Assembly (NCBI RefSeq): GCF_007995095.1
Contig: NZ_VOPY01000002.1
Coordinates: 620,001-684,000, forward strand
DNA from: Flavisphingopyxis soli
GTDB lineage: Bacteria > Pseudomonadota > Alphaproteobacteria > Sphingomonadales > Sphingomonadaceae
Direction of reading: 5' to 3'
DNA length: 64,000 bases
The notes beneath the pieces are model-generated. The model saw only the letters and a list, made by a program, of their open reading frames with translations. It did not search any database and was not told the origin of the DNA. Positions 17,473 through 50,763 of this stretch are shown here, one piece after another; within the stretch, counting starts at the first letter, position 1; every line of letters begins with the position of its first letter. A program made the position numbers and the translations under genes.

Positions 17473-18303
17473 ATGGAAACCAAGAGCGACGATCATATGG
17501 CTTCCGGCCATCCCCTGTCGCAGCTCATTGCGATCATGAAGCGGCTGCGCGATCCCGATGGTGGCTGCCCGTGGGATCTTGAACAGGATTTCGCGTCGAT
17601 CGCGCCCTATACGATCGAGGAAGCCTATGAAGTCGCCGACGCGATCGCGCGCAACGACATGGCCGATCTGCGCGACGAACTCGGCGACCTGCTGTTCCAG
17701 GTCGTCTTCCACGCGCAAATGGCATCCGAGCGTGGAGCGTTCGACATCGCCGATGTCGCCGACGCAATCGTCACCAAGATGATCCGCCGCCATCCGCACG
17801 TGTTCGATCCCGCCAACGACGGTAGCGCGATCGCCACCGCGGGCGACCAGATCAAGGCATGGGAGGTGATGAAGGCGGCCGAACGTGGCGGCGCCGATGC
17901 CGGTACGCTCGCCGGCGTCGCGCAGGGCCTCCCTGCCCTGATGCGCGCGCAGAAGATCCAGCGCCGCGCCGCGCGCACCGGCTTCGACTGGCCCGATGTC
18001 GCCGGTCCGCGCGCCAAGATCGTCGAGGAACTGGCCGAAACAGACGCCGCCACGAACGACGCGGAACGCCACGAAGAGCTCGGCGACCTGCTCTTCTCTG
18101 TTGTCAATTATGCGCGCCATATCGGCGTCGATGCCGAACACGCGCTGCGCGACGCCACCATTAAGTTCGAACGCCGCTTCAATGCGGTCGAGCGCGACCA
18201 TGACGGAGCCCTCACCGACCTGTCGCCCGAGGCGCTCGACACGCTGTGGGAACAGGCCAAGGCCTCGCTACGTGACGATCAGGCTCGGTCGCGGACTTCC
18301 TAG
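17473..18303 (+). CDS. mazG: Nucleoside triphosphate pyrophosphohydrolase MazG
   Basis: This 276-residue protein has two MazG domains, with EEAYEV and DELGDLLFQVVFHAQM in the first and EELGDLLFSVVNYARHIG, then FERRF, in the second; these Glu/Asp residues bind Mg2+. The C-terminal domain is the active one in Escherichia coli. It hydrolyses NTPs and dNTPs to monophosphates and pyrophosphate and may clear oxidised or unusual nucleotides. I prefer the ATG at 17473 over an in-frame TTG just before it; neither has a good ribosome site. Its stop codon shares CTAG with the stop of the convergent barrel gene. Confidence 0.95.
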   Translation: METKSDDHMASGHPLSQLIAIMKRLRDPDGGCPWDLEQDFASIAPYTIEEAYEVADAIARNDMADLRDELGDLLFQVVFHAQMASERGAFDIADVADAIVTKMIRRHPHVFDPANDGSAIATAGDQIKAWEVMKAAERGGADAGTLAGVAQGLPALMRAQKIQRRAARTGFDWPDVAGPRAKIVEELAETDAATNDAERHEELGDLLFSVVNYARHIGVDAEHALRDATIKFERRFNAVERDHDGALTDLSPEALDTLWEQAKASLRDDQARSRTS

Positions 18304-20774
18304 AACTGCTTGCGCAGGCTGATCTCCACATAGCGGCCGACGGGGTCGACGAAGCCTCGCTGATAGCTGAGCGGGACGATGCCGTTCTCGTCGCTGACAC
18401 GCTGGTAACTGTTGGTCAGGTTGTTGACCGACAGGCGCAGGCGCGTGTGCTTGAGCCAGGGGTGCGCCTCGACCAGCTTTTCCTTCTGGTCGAAGTCGAA
18501 AAAGGCGCGCAGGTCGAGGTTGAACTTGCTGCCGAAATCGAGCGTCGAGCCGGCCGGAGCGATCGCGGTACCGCCATCGACACGGGTCGCGCTGCCGTAC
18601 GAGAGCCGCAGGAAACCGCCCAAACCGTCGTAGAACGCCCCGGCGTCCGTGCTAACCGTATGGCGCGCCTGCCCGCCGCCCGATCCCGTCGCCGAGCCGT
18701 CCAGCAAATCGAGCACGGGCAGGCCGTCGCGGATGAATATCCGGTCACGCAGATAGACAGTGTCGTAGAGCGAAAACCGATAGTTGAGCTTGGGTTTTTC
18801 AGCTGGGCCGCCACCGGGCCGTCCCCTCCCCATCATTGGCGGTCCGCCTCCGCGTCCACCGCCGCTCGAATAATTGAGGCCAACGCGGATGCGATCGGTC
18901 TCTTCGCGCTGGAAATTGATCGGTCGCAAATCGACCGAGATTAGTTGGCCAGCGGAATCGCGGACGACGCGGTCTGGAAAGGCCGACTGGATTGCGGCGG
19001 TCAACGTGGGGAAAGACGAGATCGGGTTGTCGTTCCGCTCGCGGATGTAGTTGGCGACGAGCGACAGGCCATCGGGTTTCTTGAGACGAACGTTGATGCC
19101 GAAGTCGAGAACGTTGCGCCTGTCGGCGGTCAGCGCAGGATTGCCGCCGGTGATCGTCGGGATGACGACGGTGGTATTGGTGACGTAATCGAAGACGAAA
19201 CTGTTGGGATTCACGATGACCGGGCTGCCGAGCTGCGACAGGCTGGGCGCGCCCTGTTCGGTCGACGACGAGGCAGTGAACTGGACCGCGTCGATCGGCG
19301 CGAAATTGAGGCCGTAGCCATAGGTGGTCAGGCCGCCGAAATCGCTGAGGTCACGATAGGCGATGTTGGCGTTGACCGACAGCGAGCGGGCAAAGCCGAG
19401 CACCCCTTCGCCATCGCGGGCGAGCGGGATATCGAGGCTGGCCTGCGCGTTCTTTTGCCCGCGCGTCAGGTCGGCGGTAGCAACCGCGCCGCTGCGGACC
19501 GATCGACTGCGAATATTGAACTGCTGGAACCCCGTTGCGAGCGACAGGTTCACCGGGCCGGCGGCGGTATCGAATACCGGGCCATTGGCATTGGCGACGA
19601 TTTCGAACGTACGGTTCCTGCTGTCCGCAGTATCGGGATCGCGTGAAACCAGAGCAACTGGCGGGAAGATGGCGTTCAGATCGCCCCCGCCCGCAATATA
19701 AGCCTGCGCCGCGACCGGATCGAGGCCGCGCTGCGTTATGGTCGTGCTGTGGACGATATCGTAATTGCCTGTCAGCGAGCCCTTCCATTTGCCCAGCGAA
19801 CTGTCGACCAGCGCGCCGAGATGACCCGTTGTCGTCCGGCTCGACTGGTCGAGCGCGCCATATTCGGGAAAGCTGCGCGTGAAGACGCTGTCGTCGCTCT
19901 GGGTGAAGGGCACCGACGCCAGGCCGAGCAGCGGATTGCGGCTGGCCAGCTCGAGCGTGGCGTTAAGCGTCGCCGAAGTAACGTCGCCGAAATAGCGATT
20001 GACGGTGCCTTCGAGAGTGAAATCGTCCGATGCGCTCTGCAGCGTGCGATAGGGCGTCTGGTCGATGGCGTCGCTGGTCGTGGGCACGGTCGCAATGCCG
20101 CGCTGCGCCTGCGTGATCGCATTGTCGCGCTTGTATTCGCTCGACAGGTTGATCCGCGAGTTGGGCGCCAGCTTGACCACCGAGCCTTCGTATTGCTGGT
20201 GAAATCCGCCCCCTCCGTCGGTCGGGGCTCCGGCCTCGACCTCAAGCGTGACCGCCGCGAAATTGGGCTTGAGGATGAAATTGACGACGCGCTGGTCGGC
20301 CGCATAGCCGAATTTCAGCGCGACCTGTTCGGGCAGGACATCGACCCTCAGGATAGCCTCGGACGGAATGTTGCGCAGCTCGCGAAAGCTCGAAATGCGT
20401 CGCCCGCTGAGCAGGATGACGGGCTGTCCGCCGCCCCTCCCCCGCCCGCCTCCTACCTGCGGCGCAATTGCCGCGAGCAAATCGCCGATCGACGACGCGC
20501 CGTATGAGGCGACGTCCTTTTCGCTGAGCTGCAGTTCGGGTTTGACGTCGGTGTCGACCGCGCCGCGGATCCGCTGGCCAACCACGACGATATCGCCCGG
20601 CTGCGTCTCGCTTGCCGGGGCGTCGCCGGACTCAGCCGTCTTGGCGGCGTCGTCGGCAGGAGGTTCTTCGGACGAGGACGGCGGCGTGACCTGCGCCATC
20701 GCGGGAGCCGAGGCGCCACTCGCCAGAAGAATCGCAAGCGTAAGGAGCGACGTGCATGCAGACAGGGTTTTCAT
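18300..20774 (-). CDS. TonB-dependent receptor-like outer-membrane protein with Gly/Arg-rich segments
   Basis: The 824-residue product has a signal peptide ending near PAMAQ, an acidic and Pro-rich linker, a plug-like domain (about 60-180: DIVVVGQRI, IGDLLAAIAPQVGGG, PVILLSGRRISSFRELRNIP, VNFILKP) and a long beta-barrel ending in ISLRKQF with C-terminal Phe. No clear TonB box is seen beyond DIVVVGQR, a segment that precedes the plug in sphingomonad receptors. Two glycine/arginine-rich stretches are odd: GGGRGRGGGQP in the plug and GGGRGGGPPMMGRGRPGGG in the barrel. The cargo is unknown. It is monocistronic, convergent with mazG. Confidence 0.8.
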   Translation of the reverse strand: MKTLSACTSLLTLAILLASGASAPAMAQVTPPSSSEEPPADDAAKTAESGDAPASETQPGDIVVVGQRIRGAVDTDVKPELQLSEKDVASYGASSIGDLLAAIAPQVGGGRGRGGGQPVILLSGRRISSFRELRNIPSEAILRVDVLPEQVALKFGYAADQRVVNFILKPNFAAVTLEVEAGAPTDGGGGFHQQYEGSVVKLAPNSRINLSSEYKRDNAITQAQRGIATVPTTSDAIDQTPYRTLQSASDDFTLEGTVNRYFGDVTSATLNATLELASRNPLLGLASVPFTQSDDSVFTRSFPEYGALDQSSRTTTGHLGALVDSSLGKWKGSLTGNYDIVHSTTITQRGLDPVAAQAYIAGGGDLNAIFPPVALVSRDPDTADSRNRTFEIVANANGPVFDTAAGPVNLSLATGFQQFNIRSRSVRSGAVATADLTRGQKNAQASLDIPLARDGEGVLGFARSLSVNANIAYRDLSDFGGLTTYGYGLNFAPIDAVQFTASSSTEQGAPSLSQLGSPVIVNPNSFVFDYVTNTTVVIPTITGGNPALTADRRNVLDFGINVRLKKPDGLSLVANYIRERNDNPISSFPTLTAAIQSAFPDRVVRDSAGQLISVDLRPINFQREETDRIRVGLNYSSGGGRGGGPPMMGRGRPGGGPAEKPKLNYRFSLYDTVYLRDRIFIRDGLPVLDLLDGSATGSGGGQARHTVSTDAGAFYDGLGGFLRLSYGSATRVDGGTAIAPAGSTLDFGSKFNLDLRAFFDFDQKEKLVEAHPWLKHTRLRLSVNNLTNSYQRVSDENGIVPLSYQRGFVDPVGRYVEISLRKQF

Positions 20775-22815: not shown

Positions 22816-24210
22816 TTACTCGGTGGCATCCTCATCGGCAGCACCGCGAATTTCCGCGATCCCGAGCGTCTTGAGCTTGCGATGCAGCGCCGATCGCTCC
22901 ATCCCGATGAACGCCGCAGTGCGCGAAACATTGCCCGAAAAGCGCTTGATCTGGACGCGCAGATATTCGCGTTCGAACGATTCGCGCGCTTCGCGCAGCG
23001 GCGCACCGACCATGAACATCTGGGCGTTGGCGTTCTCGCCGCTTTCTCCGGTGATTTCCGACGGCAGCATGTCGACGGTGATATTGCCAAGATCCTCGAC
23101 CGGGTTGAGGATCATGACCCGCTCGATGACGTTGCGCAGTTGGCGGACATTGCCCGGCCAGTCGTGCGCTTCGAGCGCGCCGATCGCATCGGGCGACAGC
23201 GCTGGCGGGCCAAGCCGTCGGTCGGCGGCAAATCGCGCGAGGAAATGATCGGCGAGCGTGGCGATATCGTCGCGCCGGTCCTTGAGCGGCGGCAGGATGA
23301 CGGGCACCACATTGAGCCGGTAATAAAGATCCTCGCGAAAGGCTCCTTGCGCTATTTCGGCTTCGAGATCGCGCGACGTGCCCGATACGATCCGGACATC
23401 GACATGGACCTGACGACTGCCGCCAACACGGGTAAATGCCTGGTCGGTCAGCACGCGCAGTATCTTGCCCTGCGTGGTCAGCGGCATGTCGGCGACCTCG
23501 TCGAGGAACAACGTGCCGCCGTGGGCCTGTTCGAGCAGGCCCGGACGGACCAGTTCGCCCTGCTCCTCGACCCCGAACAGTTCCTCCTCGACGGTGTCGG
23601 GCGACATGCGCGCCGCGGTCACGATGTGAAACGCCGCCGCATTGCGCCCGCTCCAGCTGTGCAGCATCCGCGCGGCAACCTCTTTGCCCACCCCCGACGG
23701 GCCCGAAATCAGGACGCGGCTACCGGTCCCCGCAACGCGTTTGAGCGTGGCGCGCACCGCGTTGATCGGCACGCTGTTTCCCGTCAGTTCGTCGACCTGC
23801 CCGACCCGGGCCTTGAGCCGGCGGTTCTCGTCCTTGAGCTGTTCGGTTTCGGTCGCGCGCGTAACGAGGTGGAGCAATCGCTCGGCCTCGAACGGTTTTT
23901 CGATGAAGTCGGCGGCGCCCTTGCGCACGGCGGCAACCGCGGTGTCGATATTGCCATGGCCCGATACGACGAGCACGGGCAGCGTCGGATCGCGCGCCTT
24001 GATCTCATCAAGCAGGTCAAGACCGTCGAGCCGCGATCCCTGCAGCCAGACGTCGAGCAGAACGAGCGACGGCCGGCGTTCGAGGATTGCCTGCAACGCG
24101 CCGTCGCTGTCGGCGGCCGATCGTGCGGTATAGCCTTCGTCTTCGAGCACCCCCGTGACGAGATCACGGATGTCCTTTTCATCGTCGACGATCAGGATAT
24201 CGAGCGTCAT
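22816..24210 (-). CDS. ntrX: Two-component response regulator NtrX
   Basis: The 464-residue regulator has a receiver domain (ILIVDDEKDIRDLV, phospho-acceptor in LVLLDVWLQGS), an AAA+ domain (Walker A ISGPSGVGKEVAAR, Walker B GTLFLDEVADMP) and a Fis-type helix-turn-helix (GNVSRTAAFIGMERSALHRK). The sigma-54 contact motif GAFTGA is missing: the region reads ELFGVEEQGELVRPG. That is normal for many alphaproteobacterial NtrX proteins, which can act at sigma-70 promoters. I used the ATG at 24210, the start of MTLDILIVDDE, rather than an ATG 99 bases upstream. It follows ntrY by four bases. Confidence 0.95.
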   Translation of the reverse strand: MTLDILIVDDEKDIRDLVTGVLEDEGYTARSAADSDGALQAILERRPSLVLLDVWLQGSRLDGLDLLDEIKARDPTLPVLVVSGHGNIDTAVAAVRKGAADFIEKPFEAERLLHLVTRATETEQLKDENRRLKARVGQVDELTGNSVPINAVRATLKRVAGTGSRVLISGPSGVGKEVAARMLHSWSGRNAAAFHIVTAARMSPDTVEEELFGVEEQGELVRPGLLEQAHGGTLFLDEVADMPLTTQGKILRVLTDQAFTRVGGSRQVHVDVRIVSGTSRDLEAEIAQGAFREDLYYRLNVVPVILPPLKDRRDDIATLADHFLARFAADRRLGPPALSPDAIGALEAHDWPGNVRQLRNVIERVMILNPVEDLGNITVDMLPSEITGESGENANAQMFMVGAPLREARESFEREYLRVQIKRFSGNVSRTAAFIGMERSALHRKLKTLGIAEIRGAADEDATE

Positions 24211-24214
24211 CTGG

Positions 24215-26455
24215 CTAACTTCCTTGCTGCGTTTCGTCGTCTTCGGCACCCGTTGCGTCGGCATCGCTGCCGAGTGCCGCGAGCTGGTCGCGATCGAAGA
24301 TGATCGCAACCAATGCGCCGCCGCCGTCGCGGTCGGAAAAAGCGATCGTGCCCTTGTGATCTTCGACGATTTTCTTGACGATCGCGAGGCCCAGGCCGGT
24401 GCCGCCTTCGCGCGTCGTCATATAGGGTTCAACCAGCGTATCGCGCTGCTGCGGCAGACCGACCCCGCTATCAGCCACGCCGATGACGAGCGTCGAGCCG
24501 CTTTCGACCAGGCTCACCTCGATCGTCTTGTCCGACGATTTGGGATTGCGCTGAATCGCCTCCACCGCATTTTTGACGACGTTGGTTAGCGCCTGGGTCA
24601 ATTGGCGCCGGTCACAAACCACAGGTCGCAAATCATCGGCCGAAGCGAGCGAGAAATCGATCTCCGGATGCGCAACTTCGTGAAGAAAGACCGCCTGGCG
24701 AACGATATCAACGAGGTTTTCGGCATGAAAGACGGGTTTGGGCATGCGCGCAAAGCTTGAAAATTCATCGACCATGCGGCGCAGGTCGCCGACTTGGCGG
24801 ACGATCGTGCCGGTCAGCTTGGCAAAGGTGCCGTCGTCTTCGATCGTCCGGCCATAGCGGCGCTGCAAACGCTCGGCGGCAAGCTGGATCGGCGTCAACG
24901 GGTTCTTGATCTCATGCGCGATGCGACGTGCCACATCGGCCCAGGCGGCGCGGCGCTGGTCGGTCAATTGCTGGGTAATGTCTTCAAAGGTGACAACATG
25001 GCCCTGATGATCGCTCGACACGCGCACGGCCAGCGTCCGCTCGTCGGCACCCGAACCGATATTGACGATCGCCCGCTTGTCGCCACTCGCCACGACATCG
25101 GCAAGCTCGGGGCGCAGGCTGGCAAGCGTCTGGCCCACGGCCCGCTCCTGGTCGGTATCGAGCAGATCCTGTGCGCCGACATTGAGCAACTGCACGCGCC
25201 CGTCGCGACCGATCGAGAGGACCCCTGCCGATACGCCCGACAGGACCGCCTCGATCAGCGCGCGGCGGCTTTCGATCTGGCTGTTGGCGTCGAGCAAGGC
25301 GCGCGTCTGGACGCCGAGTTGCTCGGTCATGCGGTTGAATGCGGTCGACAGCGCGCCAATCTCATCGGGCTGGGCGCTGTGTTCGACGCGCGCTTCGAGG
25401 TCGCCCGACGCGACCCGCCGCGCCGCGGTGACAAGTTCGGTGATCGGTCGGACAAGGCGGTCGGCAACGACAAGCGCGGTCCAGACCGCGAACCCGACAA
25501 GGATCAGCGATACGATGTAGATCGACAGGTTGAACTGCAACTGAAGCTGACGCGAACGGGCGAACAGCGCGTTATAGTCGGTCAGCACCGCCTGCGCGGT
25601 CTCGATCTGGTTGAGCCCGAGCGAATTGGCATCGCGGCTGGCGTACAGGAATATCCGGCGCTCGCGGTCGAACAGCGTCGCGGCGGCAATCCGGTTCGAA
25701 TCGGCGACGACGATAACGCCCTCGCCGGCCATGAGGCGGTTGGCGACATCGGGCGGGATAAGATTGTCGGCCTCGCGATTTTCGGGATCGATCAGCGACA
25801 GGGCGCGGGCAATGCCATCATCGCCGATCTGGATGATCGCCGACCGCGTCAGGTTGCGCGCGACCATCTGGTAGAGATAATAATCGGTAAAATCGCTGCT
25901 GCCGATCGGCGAGCGCTGACTCCACTGGGCGAGGTCTTTCGCCATTTGCGGCGTGTTGTCTCGCACTGCGTTGACGTTCTCGTCGTAATATCCCTGCGCC
26001 AGGCTGGCAGCATTTTCGAGCATCCCGCGCGACCGGTCGGAGAACCAGAAATCGACGCCGTACTGGAACAATAACGAGGCGAAGATCGCGACGAGCAGCG
26101 TCGGCACCGCCGCAACGAGGCTGAACAGGGCGACGAGCCGGACGTGCAGGCTGTGGCGACCGGTCTGAGCATGCGGCGTCCGTCGCCGCGCGATCCGGCG
26201 GCCGAGCAGGACCATCAACGCCATCGCCGGGACCAGATTGGCGACGAGCAACACGGCGACGAGCGGCGGGGTCAGCAATGCGCCCGATTGGCCCTTGGCC
26301 ATGACGACGAAATAGGAGATCGCCGCCATCGCGACCATCGTCGCCAGAGTGACAAATTCGACTATGCGGGCGGGGGGAAGTCGATCCTGCAAAATCGTGG
26401 TCGTGCGGTGAAGCCAGCCAGCCCGCGCGACAGGTGTTGCATTTTGGCCATCCAT
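24215..26455 (-). CDS. ntrY: Membrane sensor histidine kinase NtrY
   Basis: The protein of 746 residues has three to four N-terminal transmembrane segments, an extracytoplasmic loop (about 125-290), a HAMP domain (RLVRPITELVTAARRVASGD), a PAS domain, the phospho-acceptor box [20 protein letters not shown] and an ATPase domain with NVVKNAVEAI (N box), DSGVGLP (G1) and GTGLGLAIVKKI (G2). It phosphorylates NtrX; in relatives the pair responds to nitrogen and to redox or oxygen state. AAGGG precedes the ATG. It lies 70 bases after ntrC. Confidence 0.95.
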   Translation of the reverse strand: MDGQNATPVARAGWLHRTTTILQDRLPPARIVEFVTLATMVAMAAISYFVVMAKGQSGALLTPPLVAVLLVANLVPAMALMVLLGRRIARRRTPHAQTGRHSLHVRLVALFSLVAAVPTLLVAIFASLLFQYGVDFWFSDRSRGMLENAASLAQGYYDENVNAVRDNTPQMAKDLAQWSQRSPIGSSDFTDYYLYQMVARNLTRSAIIQIGDDGIARALSLIDPENREADNLIPPDVANRLMAGEGVIVVADSNRIAAATLFDRERRIFLYASRDANSLGLNQIETAQAVLTDYNALFARSRQLQLQFNLSIYIVSLILVGFAVWTALVVADRLVRPITELVTAARRVASGDLEARVEHSAQPDEIGALSTAFNRMTEQLGVQTRALLDANSQIESRRALIEAVLSGVSAGVLSIGRDGRVQLLNVGAQDLLDTDQERAVGQTLASLRPELADVVASGDKRAIVNIGSGADERTLAVRVSSDHQGHVVTFEDITQQLTDQRRAAWADVARRIAHEIKNPLTPIQLAAERLQRRYGRTIEDDGTFAKLTGTIVRQVGDLRRMVDEFSSFARMPKPVFHAENLVDIVRQAVFLHEVAHPEIDFSLASADDLRPVVCDRRQLTQALTNVVKNAVEAIQRNPKSSDKTIEVSLVESGSTLVIGVADSGVGLPQQRDTLVEPYMTTREGGTGLGLAIVKKIVEDHKGTIAFSDRDGGGALVAIIFDRDQLAALGSDADATGAEDDETQQGS

Positions 26456-38748: not shown

Positions 38749-38933
38749 CGCGGGCGTCCATCGTCGCACTCGGCCTGGTGCTTGCCGGCTGCGGCAATGG
38801 CGGCACCGTCGACGAAGCGCAGATTGATGCGACCGCCAGCCAGATTTCGGCGGATACCGAGGCGCTGGTCAAAGCGCGCGTTGCCGAAGCAGATGCACGC
38901 GGCAACGAAGCGAGTGCAACAATGCCCGACTAG
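38745..38933 (+). CDS. Small predicted lipoprotein
   Basis: The 62-residue protein starts MTRASIVALGLVLAGCGNGG: a short signal peptide with lipobox LAGC, so the mature chain of about 46 residues should be lipidated at Cys16. The mature part is Ala, Glu and Asp rich and probably helical. The ATG overlaps the stop of the peptidase gene and the codon use fits, which supports expression. Function unknown; a link with the peptidase is only suggested by coupling. Confidence 0.65.
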   Translation: MTRASIVALGLVLAGCGNGGTVDEAQIDATASQISADTEALVKARVAEADARGNEASATMPD

Positions 38934-38974: not shown

Positions 38975-39089
<115 letters not shown>

Positions 39090-39327: not shown

Positions 39328-41481
39328 ATGATCGATTTGCACAGAGTTTTCACGGCACGCGCGGGGACTTGCTCGCTTGCGGCGGTGCTGCTGGCCTCGG
39401 CATCCCCCTTGCTTGCCCAGAGCGCACCGATCGTGCAGCCCGGCGCGCTCGGCGAGGCGCCGCGCGTCGTGACCAAGGAACAGGCGCTTAAGCTGGCCGG
39501 TCAGCAATATACCGCCGCCGACGTCGATTTCATGCAGCAGATGATCGTCCATCACCGCCAGGCGGTCGAAATGGCCGCGCTGGTCGGTGACCGCACCAGT
39601 CGCGCGGAAATCGTCGCAGTCGCCGGTCGCATCGACAAGGGCCAGGCCGATGAAATGGCATTCATGGAGAAATGGCTGGCCGATCGCGGCGAACCGACGG
39701 CGATGGCGGGCATGGGTCACGCCGACCATTCGGGCATGAAGGGCATGGCCAGCGCCGAAGGTCTCGCGCGCCTCGCCGCTGCGCGCGGCGCCGCCTTCGA
39801 CCGGCAGTTCCTGACGCTGATGATCGCTCACCACCAGGGCGCAGTCGACATGGTCGATGCGCTGCTCGGCCATGCGGGGACCGCTTATGATCCCGTCACG
39901 CTCGAATTTACCGACGACGTCAAGAACGACCAGAATGCCGAAATCGAGCGGATGACCGCCTTGCTCGAAAGCCTGTCGGACGACCCGCGCGCGACGCTGG
40001 CCGCAGGGCTGACCGATGCCGGCCAGGCGATCAGCCACCTGCGTCTCGTCGCGGCGCTTGGCAAGCCGGCGGGCTTTTTCGACCCCGCCAATCCCGGCGG
40101 ACTGCAACCGCGCAAGCCGACCGAAGATGCCAAACCCGACGACAAACCCGAATTCGGCGAACGCTCCCCGCTGCTCTCGTTCGCCAACACCGACATGGCC
40201 TTTTCGGGCGACCTGCTCGTCGCGGGCAATTACCATGGCTTCAATGCCTATCGCCTGGGCAAGGACGGCGTTCCGCGCCTCGTCAGCTCGGTCGTCTGCC
40301 CCGGCGGCCAGGGCGACGTGTCGATCGTCGGCAACCTGCTCTTGATGAGCGTTCAGGACAATCGCGCGCGGACCGATTGCGGCCTGCAGGGCGTCAACGA
40401 GAAGGTCAGCAAGGAGCGCTTCCGCGGACTGCGCATTTTCGACATTTCGGACATCACTCGCCCGGTCCAGGTCGGCCAGGTCCAGACCTGTCGCGGATCG
40501 CATACCCATTCGGTCGTCAAGAAAACCGCGACTTCGCTGATCGTCTATAATTCTGGCACCTCGCGCGTGCGCGACGAAGCCGAACTGGCGGGCTGCATCG
40601 GCGACGTACCCGGCGATGATCGGACTGCGTTGTTCCGCATCGACGTCATCGAAATTCCGCTGGCCGATCCATCGCAGGCACGGATCGTTGACAGTCCTGC
40701 GGTATTTGCCGATCCCAAGACCGGTCGCCTTGCCGGCCTCTGGCAAGGCGGTGACCATGGCGACGATACACAGCAAACCAGCCGCACCGACCAGTGCCAC
40801 GACATCACGGTGTTCCCGACCAAGAACATCGCCGCGGGCGCCTGTTCGGGCAATGGCGTGATCTTCGACATCTCCGATCCGCGCAAACCCAAACGGATCG
40901 ACGAGGTCGTCGACAAGGGGTTCGCCTATTGGCATTCGGCGACATTCAACAACGACGGCACGCTGGTCCTGTTCACCGACGAGTGGGGCGGCGGCGGGCG
41001 ACCGCGCTGCCGAGCATCGGATCCGCAGAACTGGGGCGCCGACGCGATCTACGAAATCGTCGACGGCAAACTCGAATTTCGCAGCACCTACAAACTCTCG
41101 GCGCCGCAGGGCGACAAGGAAAACTGCGTCGCGCACAACGGATCGATCATCCCGGTTCCGGGACGTAATATCTTCGTTCAGGCCTGGTATCAGGGCGGAA
41201 TATCGGTGATGGATTTCACCGATCCAAAAAATCCGTTTGAAATCGCCTATTTCGATCGCGGACCTATCGACAAGGATCAACTCGTCACAGGCGGATACTG
41301 GTCGGCCTATTGGTACAAGGGCCGGATTTACGCGACCGAGATCGCGCGCGGGCTCGACGTCTTCGCGCTCGAGCCGAGCGAGTTCCTCTCGGCGAGCGAA
41401 ATCGCCGCGGCCGAACGCGCCGACCAGGGCGGATCGTTCAATCCACAGCAGCAATTCCCGGTAACCTGGCCGAAAAAATAG
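39328..41481 (+). CDS. Periplasmic DUF305 plus LVIVD-type beta-propeller protein
   Basis: The 717-residue protein has a signal peptide (LAAVLLASASPLLAQ), a DUF305 region (about 50-215) with FMQQMIVHHRQAVEMAALV and FLTLMIAHHQGAVDMVDALL joined by a Met/His-rich linker (MGHADHSGMKGM), and a large C-terminal region with repeated GLRIFDISDITRP, GVIFDISDPRKPK and GISVMDFTDPKNPFE segments typical of LVIVD beta-propellers. DUF305 proteins are often near copper or other metal genes; paired HH motifs and the Met/His linker suggest metal binding. CAGGGGAG precedes the chosen ATG. It is probably a single-gene unit. Confidence 0.8.
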   Translation: MIDLHRVFTARAGTCSLAAVLLASASPLLAQSAPIVQPGALGEAPRVVTKEQALKLAGQQYTAADVDFMQQMIVHHRQAVEMAALVGDRTSRAEIVAVAGRIDKGQADEMAFMEKWLADRGEPTAMAGMGHADHSGMKGMASAEGLARLAAARGAAFDRQFLTLMIAHHQGAVDMVDALLGHAGTAYDPVTLEFTDDVKNDQNAEIERMTALLESLSDDPRATLAAGLTDAGQAISHLRLVAALGKPAGFFDPANPGGLQPRKPTEDAKPDDKPEFGERSPLLSFANTDMAFSGDLLVAGNYHGFNAYRLGKDGVPRLVSSVVCPGGQGDVSIVGNLLLMSVQDNRARTDCGLQGVNEKVSKERFRGLRIFDISDITRPVQVGQVQTCRGSHTHSVVKKTATSLIVYNSGTSRVRDEAELAGCIGDVPGDDRTALFRIDVIEIPLADPSQARIVDSPAVFADPKTGRLAGLWQGGDHGDDTQQTSRTDQCHDITVFPTKNIAAGACSGNGVIFDISDPRKPKRIDEVVDKGFAYWHSATFNNDGTLVLFTDEWGGGGRPRCRASDPQNWGADAIYEIVDGKLEFRSTYKLSAPQGDKENCVAHNGSIIPVPGRNIFVQAWYQGGISVMDFTDPKNPFEIAYFDRGPIDKDQLVTGGYWSAYWYKGRIYATEIARGLDVFALEPSEFLSASEIAAAERADQGGSFNPQQQFPVTWPKK

Positions 41482-48375: not shown

Positions 48376-50763
48376 ATGGCAGGGGAATCCAAAATCATCG
48401 GCATATGGCCGCGTTCCAACCAGACCGGGTCCGACATGGACGATCCGGCCACAATTGACGAGGCGCCGGCTCCGCTAGGCGACAATGGCGACGCCCTTGC
48501 GACCATGACGGCATCCGACGAAGGCTTTGCCACAGCGCCAGCCGAACCGGACAGCCAGCCGTGGACCGATTCCGCCTGGGACGACGCCGATTCCCCGGAA
48601 ACCGGGGCTGGAACGCCGTGGGCCGCGATCCTGATCGGCGTCGCGGCGGCGGGTTGGACGGGCTTCTACGCATGGCTGCTGGTGCGGGGCGACATCGCCC
48701 TCACCGACGCGGCCGCCTGGGCCAGCGCACTGGCGACGGCGAGCATCCCGCTGATCCTGCTCGCTGCGCTCTATCTCATTTTCCAGCGGTCGAGCGCTGC
48801 CGAGACCAACCGCTATGGCCGGTTGATCCGCGACCTCGATAGCCAAACCGGCGCACTGAACAGCAAGCTCGAGGCGGTCAACGCGTCGCTCGCGCTCGCC
48901 CACCGCCAGATGCGCGACGACGGCGAGCGGCTGAGCGCATTGGGCATCGATGTCGGCGGCCGGATCGTCGAGGCAAGCGAACGCATTCGCGGCGAAATGA
49001 CCGCAACGCTGGGCGCCAGCGACACCATGGCGCAGCGCGCGAAAAGCGCATTCGATCAGGTCGAGGGACTGCTTGCGGGCCTGCCGCGGGTCGACGCGGT
49101 TGCCGCGCGCCTGACCGAGAACCTGCGCCAGGCCGGACTGGCCGCTCACCAGCACGGATCGGCGCTGCAGGCGCAGATCGCAACCTTGGAGGAAACTGCG
49201 GCGCAGTCCGAACAGGGGCTGTCCGCCAGTACCGTCGCGCTGGCCGCCCAAATCGAGGAACTCGGCGAGCAGAGCGATGGCCTGACCAAACGGCTCGATG
49301 CGACGCAGGGCGAATTGCTGGCGACGATCGGCGCCTCGTTGACCAATATCGAGCAGGCGCTGACGAGTGCGCGCGACTCTGCGCGCGCTGAGATCGAGGC
49401 GATGGTTCGCGAAGCCGAAAGCGCGCGGGACCGGCTCGTTGCGGCGGGCGACGGCTTGGCCGAAACGACCCGCGAACGGCTTGCCGAATGCGACGACGTC
49501 GTCGCGGCGATCGGCGATCGGTTGAACGAGCAGACCGACCAGGCCGACAGCATCGTCGAAGGCTTTGCCCAAGGCATCGAACAATCGCGCGAGGCGATGG
49601 CGACGCTCGATTCGGACTGGACCGCCACGCTCGGGGGGCTCGGTGCGGCAATCGAGACGCTGAGCGGCAAGACAGAAACGATGGCGGCCCGGCTGTCGGA
49701 CAGCGAAACCATTGCCCAACGGTTGCTGTCGCGCTCGGAGGACCTGATGCTCGCGCTCGATTCGGTGGCGCGCGAGATCGACGAGACGCTGCCGCGCGCG
49801 CTTGCACGACTCGATGGCACGATCGGCCAGAGCCGCACGCTGATGAACGATATCGCCCCCGCGGTCGAAACGATGGAAGCGGTCGGCAACGCCGCCCTCG
49901 AACGGCTCAAGGAAGCGCAGGCGCTGCTTGCCAACCAGAGCGAGGAAACCGAACGCCAGCGCGACATATTGGGAGAGCTCGCGACCGCCAACGGCAACGC
50001 CCTGCGCGACATGAAAACGCTGATCGCCGACATCGAAAGCGGATCGCAGTCGGTCGCCGACAGCGCCGCGCCGCAGCTTGTCGAGGCGATGGTGCGCGTC
50101 AAGGAAACCGCCGGCCAGGCGATCGCGCACGCGCGCACCGCGCTCGCCAGCGTCGTCGCCGATGCCGCCGACACGATGCGCGAAGCGACGATGAAGGGCC
50201 TCAGCGAAACGCTCGAGGCCGGTGTCGCCGACCGGATGAGAGAGATCACCCAGGGGTCGCAGCGCGCGGTCGAGGCGGCGCGTGCGGCAACCGAACTGCT
50301 GATGCAGCAGATGACCACGATCTCGGATGCCAGCTCGGCCATCGAGGCGCGCGTCGCCGATGCCCGCGCCGCGGTCAGCGATGCCGATCACGAAAGTCTC
50401 AGCCGCCACGTCACCTTGCTGACCGAATCGCTCAAATCGACCGCGATCGATGTCACCAAGATCCTGTCGAATGAGGTCACCGACACCGCCTGGGCGGCAT
50501 ATCTGAAGGGCGATCGCGGCGTTTTCACCCGCCGCGCGGTCCGCCTGCTCGATGCGACCGACGCGCGCGAAATCCTCGCTTATTACGAAAACGACGCGGA
50601 TTTCCGCGAGTATGTCAATCGCTACATCCACGATTTCGAGGCAATGCTGCGCACGCTGCTCGGCACGCGCGATGGCCAGGCGCTCAGCGTTACGCTGCTG
50701 TCGTCGGACATGGGTAAACTCTATGTCGCACTGGCCCAGGCAATCGAACGCCTGCGCGACTGA
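48376..50763 (+). CDS. Large membrane-anchored coiled-coil protein
   Basis: The protein of 795 residues has an acidic, disordered N-terminus (1-78), two transmembrane segments (about 80-103 TPWAAILIGVAAAGWTGFYA and 112-136 SALATASIPLILLAALYLIF) and about 570 residues of predicted helix and coiled coil rich in Ala, Glu, Leu and Arg. A compact C-terminal domain (about 690-795) is more varied and may be globular (GVFTRRAVRLLDATDA, YVNRYIHDFEAMLRTLLG). Both ends should be cytoplasmic. The layout recalls polarity, division or chemoreceptor-like scaffold proteins, but no receptor signalling hairpin or GTP/ATP motif is seen. Function unknown. Confidence 0.75.
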   Translation: MAGESKIIGIWPRSNQTGSDMDDPATIDEAPAPLGDNGDALATMTASDEGFATAPAEPDSQPWTDSAWDDADSPETGAGTPWAAILIGVAAAGWTGFYAWLLVRGDIALTDAAAWASALATASIPLILLAALYLIFQRSSAAETNRYGRLIRDLDSQTGALNSKLEAVNASLALAHRQMRDDGERLSALGIDVGGRIVEASERIRGEMTATLGASDTMAQRAKSAFDQVEGLLAGLPRVDAVAARLTENLRQAGLAAHQHGSALQAQIATLEETAAQSEQGLSASTVALAAQIEELGEQSDGLTKRLDATQGELLATIGASLTNIEQALTSARDSARAEIEAMVREAESARDRLVAAGDGLAETTRERLAECDDVVAAIGDRLNEQTDQADSIVEGFAQGIEQSREAMATLDSDWTATLGGLGAAIETLSGKTETMAARLSDSETIAQRLLSRSEDLMLALDSVAREIDETLPRALARLDGTIGQSRTLMNDIAPAVETMEAVGNAALERLKEAQALLANQSEETERQRDILGELATANGNALRDMKTLIADIESGSQSVADSAAPQLVEAMVRVKETAGQAIAHARTALASVVADAADTMREATMKGLSETLEAGVADRMREITQGSQRAVEAARAATELLMQQMTTISDASSAIEARVADARAAVSDADHESLSRHVTLLTESLKSTAIDVTKILSNEVTDTAWAAYLKGDRGVFTRRAVRLLDATDAREILAYYENDADFREYVNRYIHDFEAMLRTLLGTRDGQALSVTLLSSDMGKLYVALAQAIERLRD

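Follow-up and report, generated by a model that had tools for sequence, protein, structure and literature searches.

The window analyzed here, a stretch of 64,000 nucleotides, encodes a protein in which a DUF305 domain is followed by a β-propeller. The question raised by this locus is whether such a pairing constitutes a metal-dependent unit and, if so, what each part contributes. The gene (39328..41481, plus strand, as are all features of the gene given below) is an open frame of 717 amino acids, which its orthologues match over the full length. Residues 1–30 (39328..39417) form an export signal peptide, read by eye and ending in ...PLLA-Q, in agreement with the secretion proposed in the initial annotation. 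Pfam identified a tandem DUF305 domain (PF03713; residues 65–213; 39520..39966) with E = 1.3e-42 and 145.9 bits against a gathering cut-off of 27, covering profile positions 1–151 of 151, and a genome search placed the domain identically. Conservation delimited within it HH motif 1 (H75 and H76; 39550..39555; M72 and M82 nearby), the Met/His linker MGHADHSGMKGM (residues 129–140; 39712..39747), and HH motif 2 (H168 and H169; 39829..39834; M165 and M175 nearby). Because one full-length PF03713 match covers both HH motifs and the linker, the two HH-containing DUF305 halves described earlier, although both motifs are present, are halves of one tandem domain rather than two domains. Two AlphaFold2 models (mean pLDDT 78.1 and 73.5) showed the C-terminal part as a β-propeller of seven blades (40024..41370), with blades from residue 287 and closing strands at residues 233–245. 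The modeled blades extend over approximately residues 287–681, so that some 395 residues, rather than the approximately 450 first estimated, belong to the propeller repeats.

The joining of the two parts in one frame is real. All 80 orthologues kept, which ranked highest among the 372 confirmed relatives in a scan of genome contigs, share this architecture and are 65–83% identical to the window protein, which ruled out an assembly or frame error as the origin of the fusion. Upstream of the gene are an M28 peptidase gene, a short frame ending near 38933, and a tRNA-Pro gene (38975-39051, plus strand) that ends 277 bases before it; the downstream neighbor is a CitE-like gene on the opposite strand. 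The position of the tRNA-Pro gene, together with the patchy distribution described below, hints that the fusion gene was inserted behind tRNA genes. A tRNA gene also lies just upstream of the match in loci L052 and L058, and tRNAs in all 80 loci numbered only 7. A MAFFT comparison of 19 upstream regions gave no defensible copper-responsive motif common to relatives; a TTGAC-like −35 box appeared in the upstream regions of several relatives and was not clear in the window, where the single site returned by a promoter scan, against 0.7 expected, was on the minus strand. Elsewhere in the window, the long frames 18300-20774, 22882-24303, and 48376-50763 had no Pfam match above cut-off, and 22882-24303 may be spurious because another long frame lies opposite.

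The DUF305 part carried a conserved set of potential metal ligands. M72, H75, H76, E109, M113, M165, H168, H169, M175, and E205 showed no variation across the DUF305 rows, 81 fused and 39 split, and M82 was conserved at 0.98 and 1.00, respectively. The linker, on whose conservation the initial annotation had made its metal reading depend, was kept: M137 and M140 were present at 0.99 in the fused and 1.00 in the split rows, which ruled out chance as the source of the linker composition. H134 was conserved at 0.94 in the 81 fused rows, and the remainder of the linker varied in length and letters while being His-rich throughout. In an alignment read by eye, M72, H75, H76, M82, M113, M137, M140, M165, H168, H169, and M175 had the same letter in CopM (PDB ID: 5ffa); this alignment and the conservation placed in the fusion protein the two HH motifs and the conserved Met set expected of a CopM protein. 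Judged from these residues, the DUF305 part likely binds copper. CopM binds Cu(I) at approximately 1:1 with a KDapp of 3.7e-16 (PMC4335983). This stoichiometry of approximately one copper per protein lends no support to the binuclear site that the HH motifs had been suggested to build.

The propeller carried a conserved set of its own. The conservation alignment comprised 127 rows, 81 fused and 46 split, with 41 of the 46 split propellers drawn from the 40 regions of the G811 phylum described below; four long fused X_ rows were aligned and uncounted, and the start of L011 is unresolved. H392, H394, H491, H536, H603, D289, D330, D492, D551, E552, and eight Cys residues were each conserved at 0.96 or above in both the fused and the split propellers. 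In terms of the AlphaFold2 strands, H392-T-H394 is located at the inner-strand entry of blade 3 (40501..40509; H392 in 127/127 rows, H394 in 126/127), H491-D492 in the inner strand of blade 4 (40798..40803; H491 in 126/127 rows, the remaining row having X, and D492 in 127/127), H536 in the inner strand of blade 5 (40933..40935; 127/127), D551-E552 at the end of strand b and in loop b–c of blade 5 (40978..40983; 127/127), and H603 in the inner strand of blade 6 (41134..41136; 127/127). One actinomycete paralogue had Leu at the position of H394.

In the first AlphaFold2 model, H394, H491, H536, and H603 were each second in the inner strands of successive blades 3–6, and residues second in propeller inner strands line the central channel; in the other model, H394 was first in its strand, not second. 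A metal site in the propeller is probable, and these four inner-strand His residues would plausibly form it, the site being derived from the strand register of the models and not from coordinates. None of the 15 His and Cys residues between residues 287 and 681 was located in an a–b or c–d loop. General conservation of the top face was not detected, as the top loops were not more conserved than the bottom loops (47/161 vs 14/59 positions; Fisher p = 0.50). H303 and H477 were rejected as core ligands, since they were invariant in the 81 fused rows but occurred in only 0.35 and 0.85 of the 46 split rows.

The distribution of the two parts indicated that they belong together beyond the fused form. 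Within the order of the window, the propeller was found in 144 of the 396 genomes sampled, and the listed matches were open frames of at least 732 residues, apart from a 98-residue fragment at the edge of a contig; these fusions were judged by frame length alone, and two frames read through one stop. Among 398 genomes drawn from the window's phylum, 18 matched, five of them weakly. Four genomes from a single group within the class (L093, L094, L100, and L101, the layout of L093 being judged by tblastn alone) encoded DUF305 and propeller in separate adjacent frames, and two of the four had a fused copy as well. The phylum of G811, an Acidobacteria-titled genome, contained 49 matching genomes out of 247, three of them weak, and 39 of the 49 provided 40 regions for comparison; the excluded matching genomes were G811, G823, G832, G869, G895, G914, G947, G966, G987, and G1056, with G832, G914, and G947 being weak matches. 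Of these 40 regions, 4 were fused and 35 had a separate DUF305 gene that preceded the propeller gene in the same orientation; the remaining one, L159, had none and is the second copy within its genome. These counts were based on a separate upstream DUF305 gene instead of the 'DUF+PROP' labels, some of which derive from the conserved stretch after DUF305 (query 217–240).

The 35 split pairs were closely spaced. With the first start codon used for each gene, 16 of the 35 overlapped by 4 bases, and 29 had gaps between −20 and +60 bases; gaps of −343, −313, and −307 arose from starts taken too far upstream, and the remaining ones were 64, 276, and 349. No neighbor beyond the pair was common to more than 5 of the 40 regions, giving no indication of a conserved third gene. 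In the actinomycete Nonomuraea gerenzanensis, the gene for a DUF305 lipoprotein points away from two propeller genes, whose products are 46% identical to the propeller of the window protein. Two or three tandem propeller genes were found behind one DUF305 gene in L129, L130, L131, and L132. As other phyla make both parts as neighboring genes, the fusion is probably no accident, and the pair would be a unit that handles or uses copper.

In a tree of 74 propellers (24 of the 81 fused rows, the full set of 46 split rows, and 4 X_ rows, all within the gap limit; quick method with midpoint root), the 28 fused rows were located on one side of one branch with support of 99, and the long fused rows of the G811 phylum branched first within this group. 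This single grouping suggested that the fusion probably arose once, and the probable order of events is a two-gene form first, followed by a single fusion and then spread. Two fused proteins, L164 4205-7765 and L166 4075-7398, comprised 1186 and 1107 residues, the first 370–440 of which, before DUF305, had no Pfam match at 0.01; their starts were set at the first start codon, and these lengths may be too great. The DUF305–propeller unit is real, conserved, and composed of two parts.

To relate this unit to copper, we focused on the genes surrounding the fusion loci. The initial annotation had noted no adjacent copper genes, which holds for the frames scanned in the window but does not extend to the family. 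Pfam found no copper family in 28 other frames of the window, all located from 18.3 to 64 kb and including the nearest large frames on both sides but not the short one ending near 38933. Across the family, copA–copB homologues were located within 8 kb of 9 of the 80 fused loci (L009, L019, L021, L023, L032, L059, L064, L070, and L078; proteins confirmed by Pfam in L009, L032, and L059), and the other 71 loci had no copAB in their flanks. The nine observed cases compared with 0.48 expected (Poisson P 3e-9), an expectation derived from 51 CopB places, among which two pieces in G422 are one gene, in 40 chosen genomes that include 8 of the 9 copAB loci. The copAB label required at least eight changes on the tree of 81, so that it is not one simply inherited block, although this count cannot separate gains from losses; seven of the nine loci shared the same tail-to-tail arrangement, indicating that the adjacency may partly be inheritance with losses. 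The genome of the window has its own copper cluster (L169 5565-13180), approximately 455 kb from the fusion gene, encoding CopB, a multicopper oxidase, a P-type ATPase with YHS and HMBD, DUF411, and a short DUF305 protein. On an Arthrobacter plasmid (L106 8824-10961), a DUF305 gene is followed, near merA, by genes for a glycosylhydrolase of the F510_1955 family and a copper-binding protein of the four-helix bundle type.

Such neighborhoods are also what would be expected of a protein that only sequesters copper, in which both parts would bind excess envelope copper, as thought for CopM, with the propeller serving as a non-catalytic scaffold or source of extra ligands. The conserved CopM residue set, the copAB genes flanking 9/80 loci, and a linker that is His-rich and variable in length are consistent with this reading. 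The conservation of propeller His, Asp, Glu, and Cys residues over 127 rows, by contrast, suggests a specific site, and CopB was present in 115 of the 130 fused genomes within the window's family but in 0 of the 14 outside it among the 144 of the order (the 130 counted by script and the 14 by eye). We consider sequestration alone unlikely. This CopB distribution and the 71 loci with no copAB also speak against any tight link of the fusion to copper genes.

We tentatively favor, with slightly less than even confidence, an exported copper unit in which a CopM-like Cu(I) donor or buffer acts in cis on a propeller with a metal site of its own, the propeller being most likely a copper enzyme. The tandem DUF305 would form a CopM-type helical bundle binding Cu(I) via its invariant Met and HH residues together with the linker MxxM. 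This bundle would be held beside a further metal site, located where the propeller channel opens and built as a single site from H392/H394, H491, H536, and H603 with D551/E552 near, and would pass its metal, which we infer to be copper, to the propeller. Catalysis by the propeller, on whatever substrate, is possible, and the arrangement would resemble that proposed for methanethiol oxidase and its SCO1/SenC partner. Of the earlier interpretation, the suggestion of a metal protein beyond storage is supported: the Met and His residues of DUF305 correspond, by eye, to those of CopM, and a near-invariant group of His residues is present in the propeller as well. The broader proposal of a new copper-dependent family of propeller enzymes with its own CopM-type metallochaperone, supplied in cis or co-translated, arising first as an operon and fused once, appears rather doubtful as a whole.

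The structural comparisons bear on a different possibility, a non-copper metallohydrolase with a Zn- or Mn-type propeller site like that of the Sphingobium TCM1 phosphotriesterase, where DUF305 would serve another metal or stability only. TCM1 (PDB ID: 5hrm) was the first Foldseek match for both models (E 4.1e-13 and 2.9e-12; TM 0.52–0.53) and is the closest solved fold among the matches listed; TCM1 (5hrm and 5ioj) was also the sole PDB molecule that a search with the propeller profile matched (E 0.0007 and 0.0013). The title of the TCM1 paper reportedly mentions a binuclear metal centre in a seven-bladed propeller. However, the profile match consists of only two short LVIVD-like stretches, and the structural match, which contains no DUF305, is 12–14% identical and followed by many other propellers. 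In the VIA-align and viral comparisons, the matches listed were generic propellers. As the DUF305 part has the soft-metal residues of CopM, a metallohydrolase of this kind seems quite unlikely.

Profile resemblances were also seen to another group of propellers. The choice-of-anchor B model TIGR04312 gave E = 3e-15 (NCBIfam), with 54.1 bits for the whole protein and 56.3 bits for the propeller alone against a cut-off of 100, and a profile comparison with six choice-of-anchor-B-like proteins gave a firm match, with a probability of 97 and E 7e-11. In that alignment, H536, D551/E552, and H603 met His, Asp/Glu, and His, respectively, and H491 was unaligned; in four sequences read by eye, the HD, HS, HDE, and DHN motifs resembled H491, H536, D551/E552, and H603. 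The window propeller scored 16.5 bits for LVIVD (PF08309), under the Pfam cut-off of 20.2, and an actinomycete relative reached 29 bits. The choice-of-anchor B propellers are related, and the unit might be a non-catalytic binding or surface module, an attachment propeller of the LVIVD or choice-of-anchor-B type with DUF305 as a metal-dependent accessory. Long members, such as L018 8832-10403, are extended at the C terminus by a part whose weak, sub-threshold resemblance to FIMAH would fit surface attachment. The window protein lacks this extension and matches choice-of-anchor B proteins, whose frames comprise 914–932 residues, in its propeller part only. We regard the surface module as improbable in view of the near-invariance of the metal-type residues, several of which recur in choice-of-anchor B as aligned above.

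The exported copper unit that we favor was further compared with the copper enzymes of propeller fold. MtoX is an exported copper enzyme with a propeller fold and four nitrogen ligands, and its gene adjoins that of a SCO1/SenC copper chaperone proposed to serve this methanethiol oxidase (PMC5739008). For SELENBP1, activity was lost upon change of propeller His, Asp, and Glu, and HH and HxxH copper motifs were discussed (PMC10362175). The window protein resembles MtoX/SBP56 in how it may work, as an exported propeller whose gene is beside, or here joined to, that of a copper-protein partner, and the seven-bladed fold was found in both models, a fold common to many families. It differs in that its partner is DUF305, that its propeller has no HH pair, having HxH (392–394) and single His residues instead, and that its scores were far under the cut-offs (MtoX, 12.1 of 650 bits; SBP56, 14.6 of 34 bits), which ruled out membership among methanethiol oxidases. 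Within the window's family, none of 199 genomes had an SBP56 score above cut-off. The 50 matches listed in each PDB comparison contained neither methanethiol oxidase nor nitrous oxide reductase, an absence that excludes neither.

CopM demonstrates that Cu(I) binding is within the reach of DUF305 proteins; to our knowledge, no client of CopM-type DUF305 proteins has been named. The conserved DUF305–propeller pair, encoded by two genes in some lineages and fused in those 144 of 396 genomes of the order, suggests such a client, and its occurrence as one soluble protein makes enzyme loading by a CopM-type domain testable. If the propeller is truly a copper enzyme, it is one that every Pfam and NCBIfam model missed at cut-off in the window protein. 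Like CopM of Synechocystis (PDB IDs: 5ffa and 5fej), the fusion protein is exported and has a tandem DUF305, two HH motifs, a Met-rich linker with a GMxGM stretch, and 11 conserved Met/His residues in common. Unlike CopM, the DUF305 part of this family is fused to, or paired with, a propeller, and it scored 68.8 bits (E = 2.9e-19; NCBIfam) against the cut-off of 90 for the CopM equivalog NF049983.

A literature search, with most subscription papers outside its reach, listed no entry that describes a DUF305–propeller fusion; PMC6813330 proved unrelated, and PMC4520260 matched only through DUF3050. The nearest precedent is the pairing of the two parts in Starkeya novella, where the DUF305 gene Snov_0990 and the YVTN β-propeller gene Snov_0991 are 12 bp apart and likely share one promoter, and Snov_0991 is highly expressed on tetrathionate (PMC6527743). 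A sulfur role for the unit is, by this analogy, only a lead. Like the fusion gene, Snov_0990 and Snov_0991 place a DUF305 protein together with a propeller, but they do so as separate genes.
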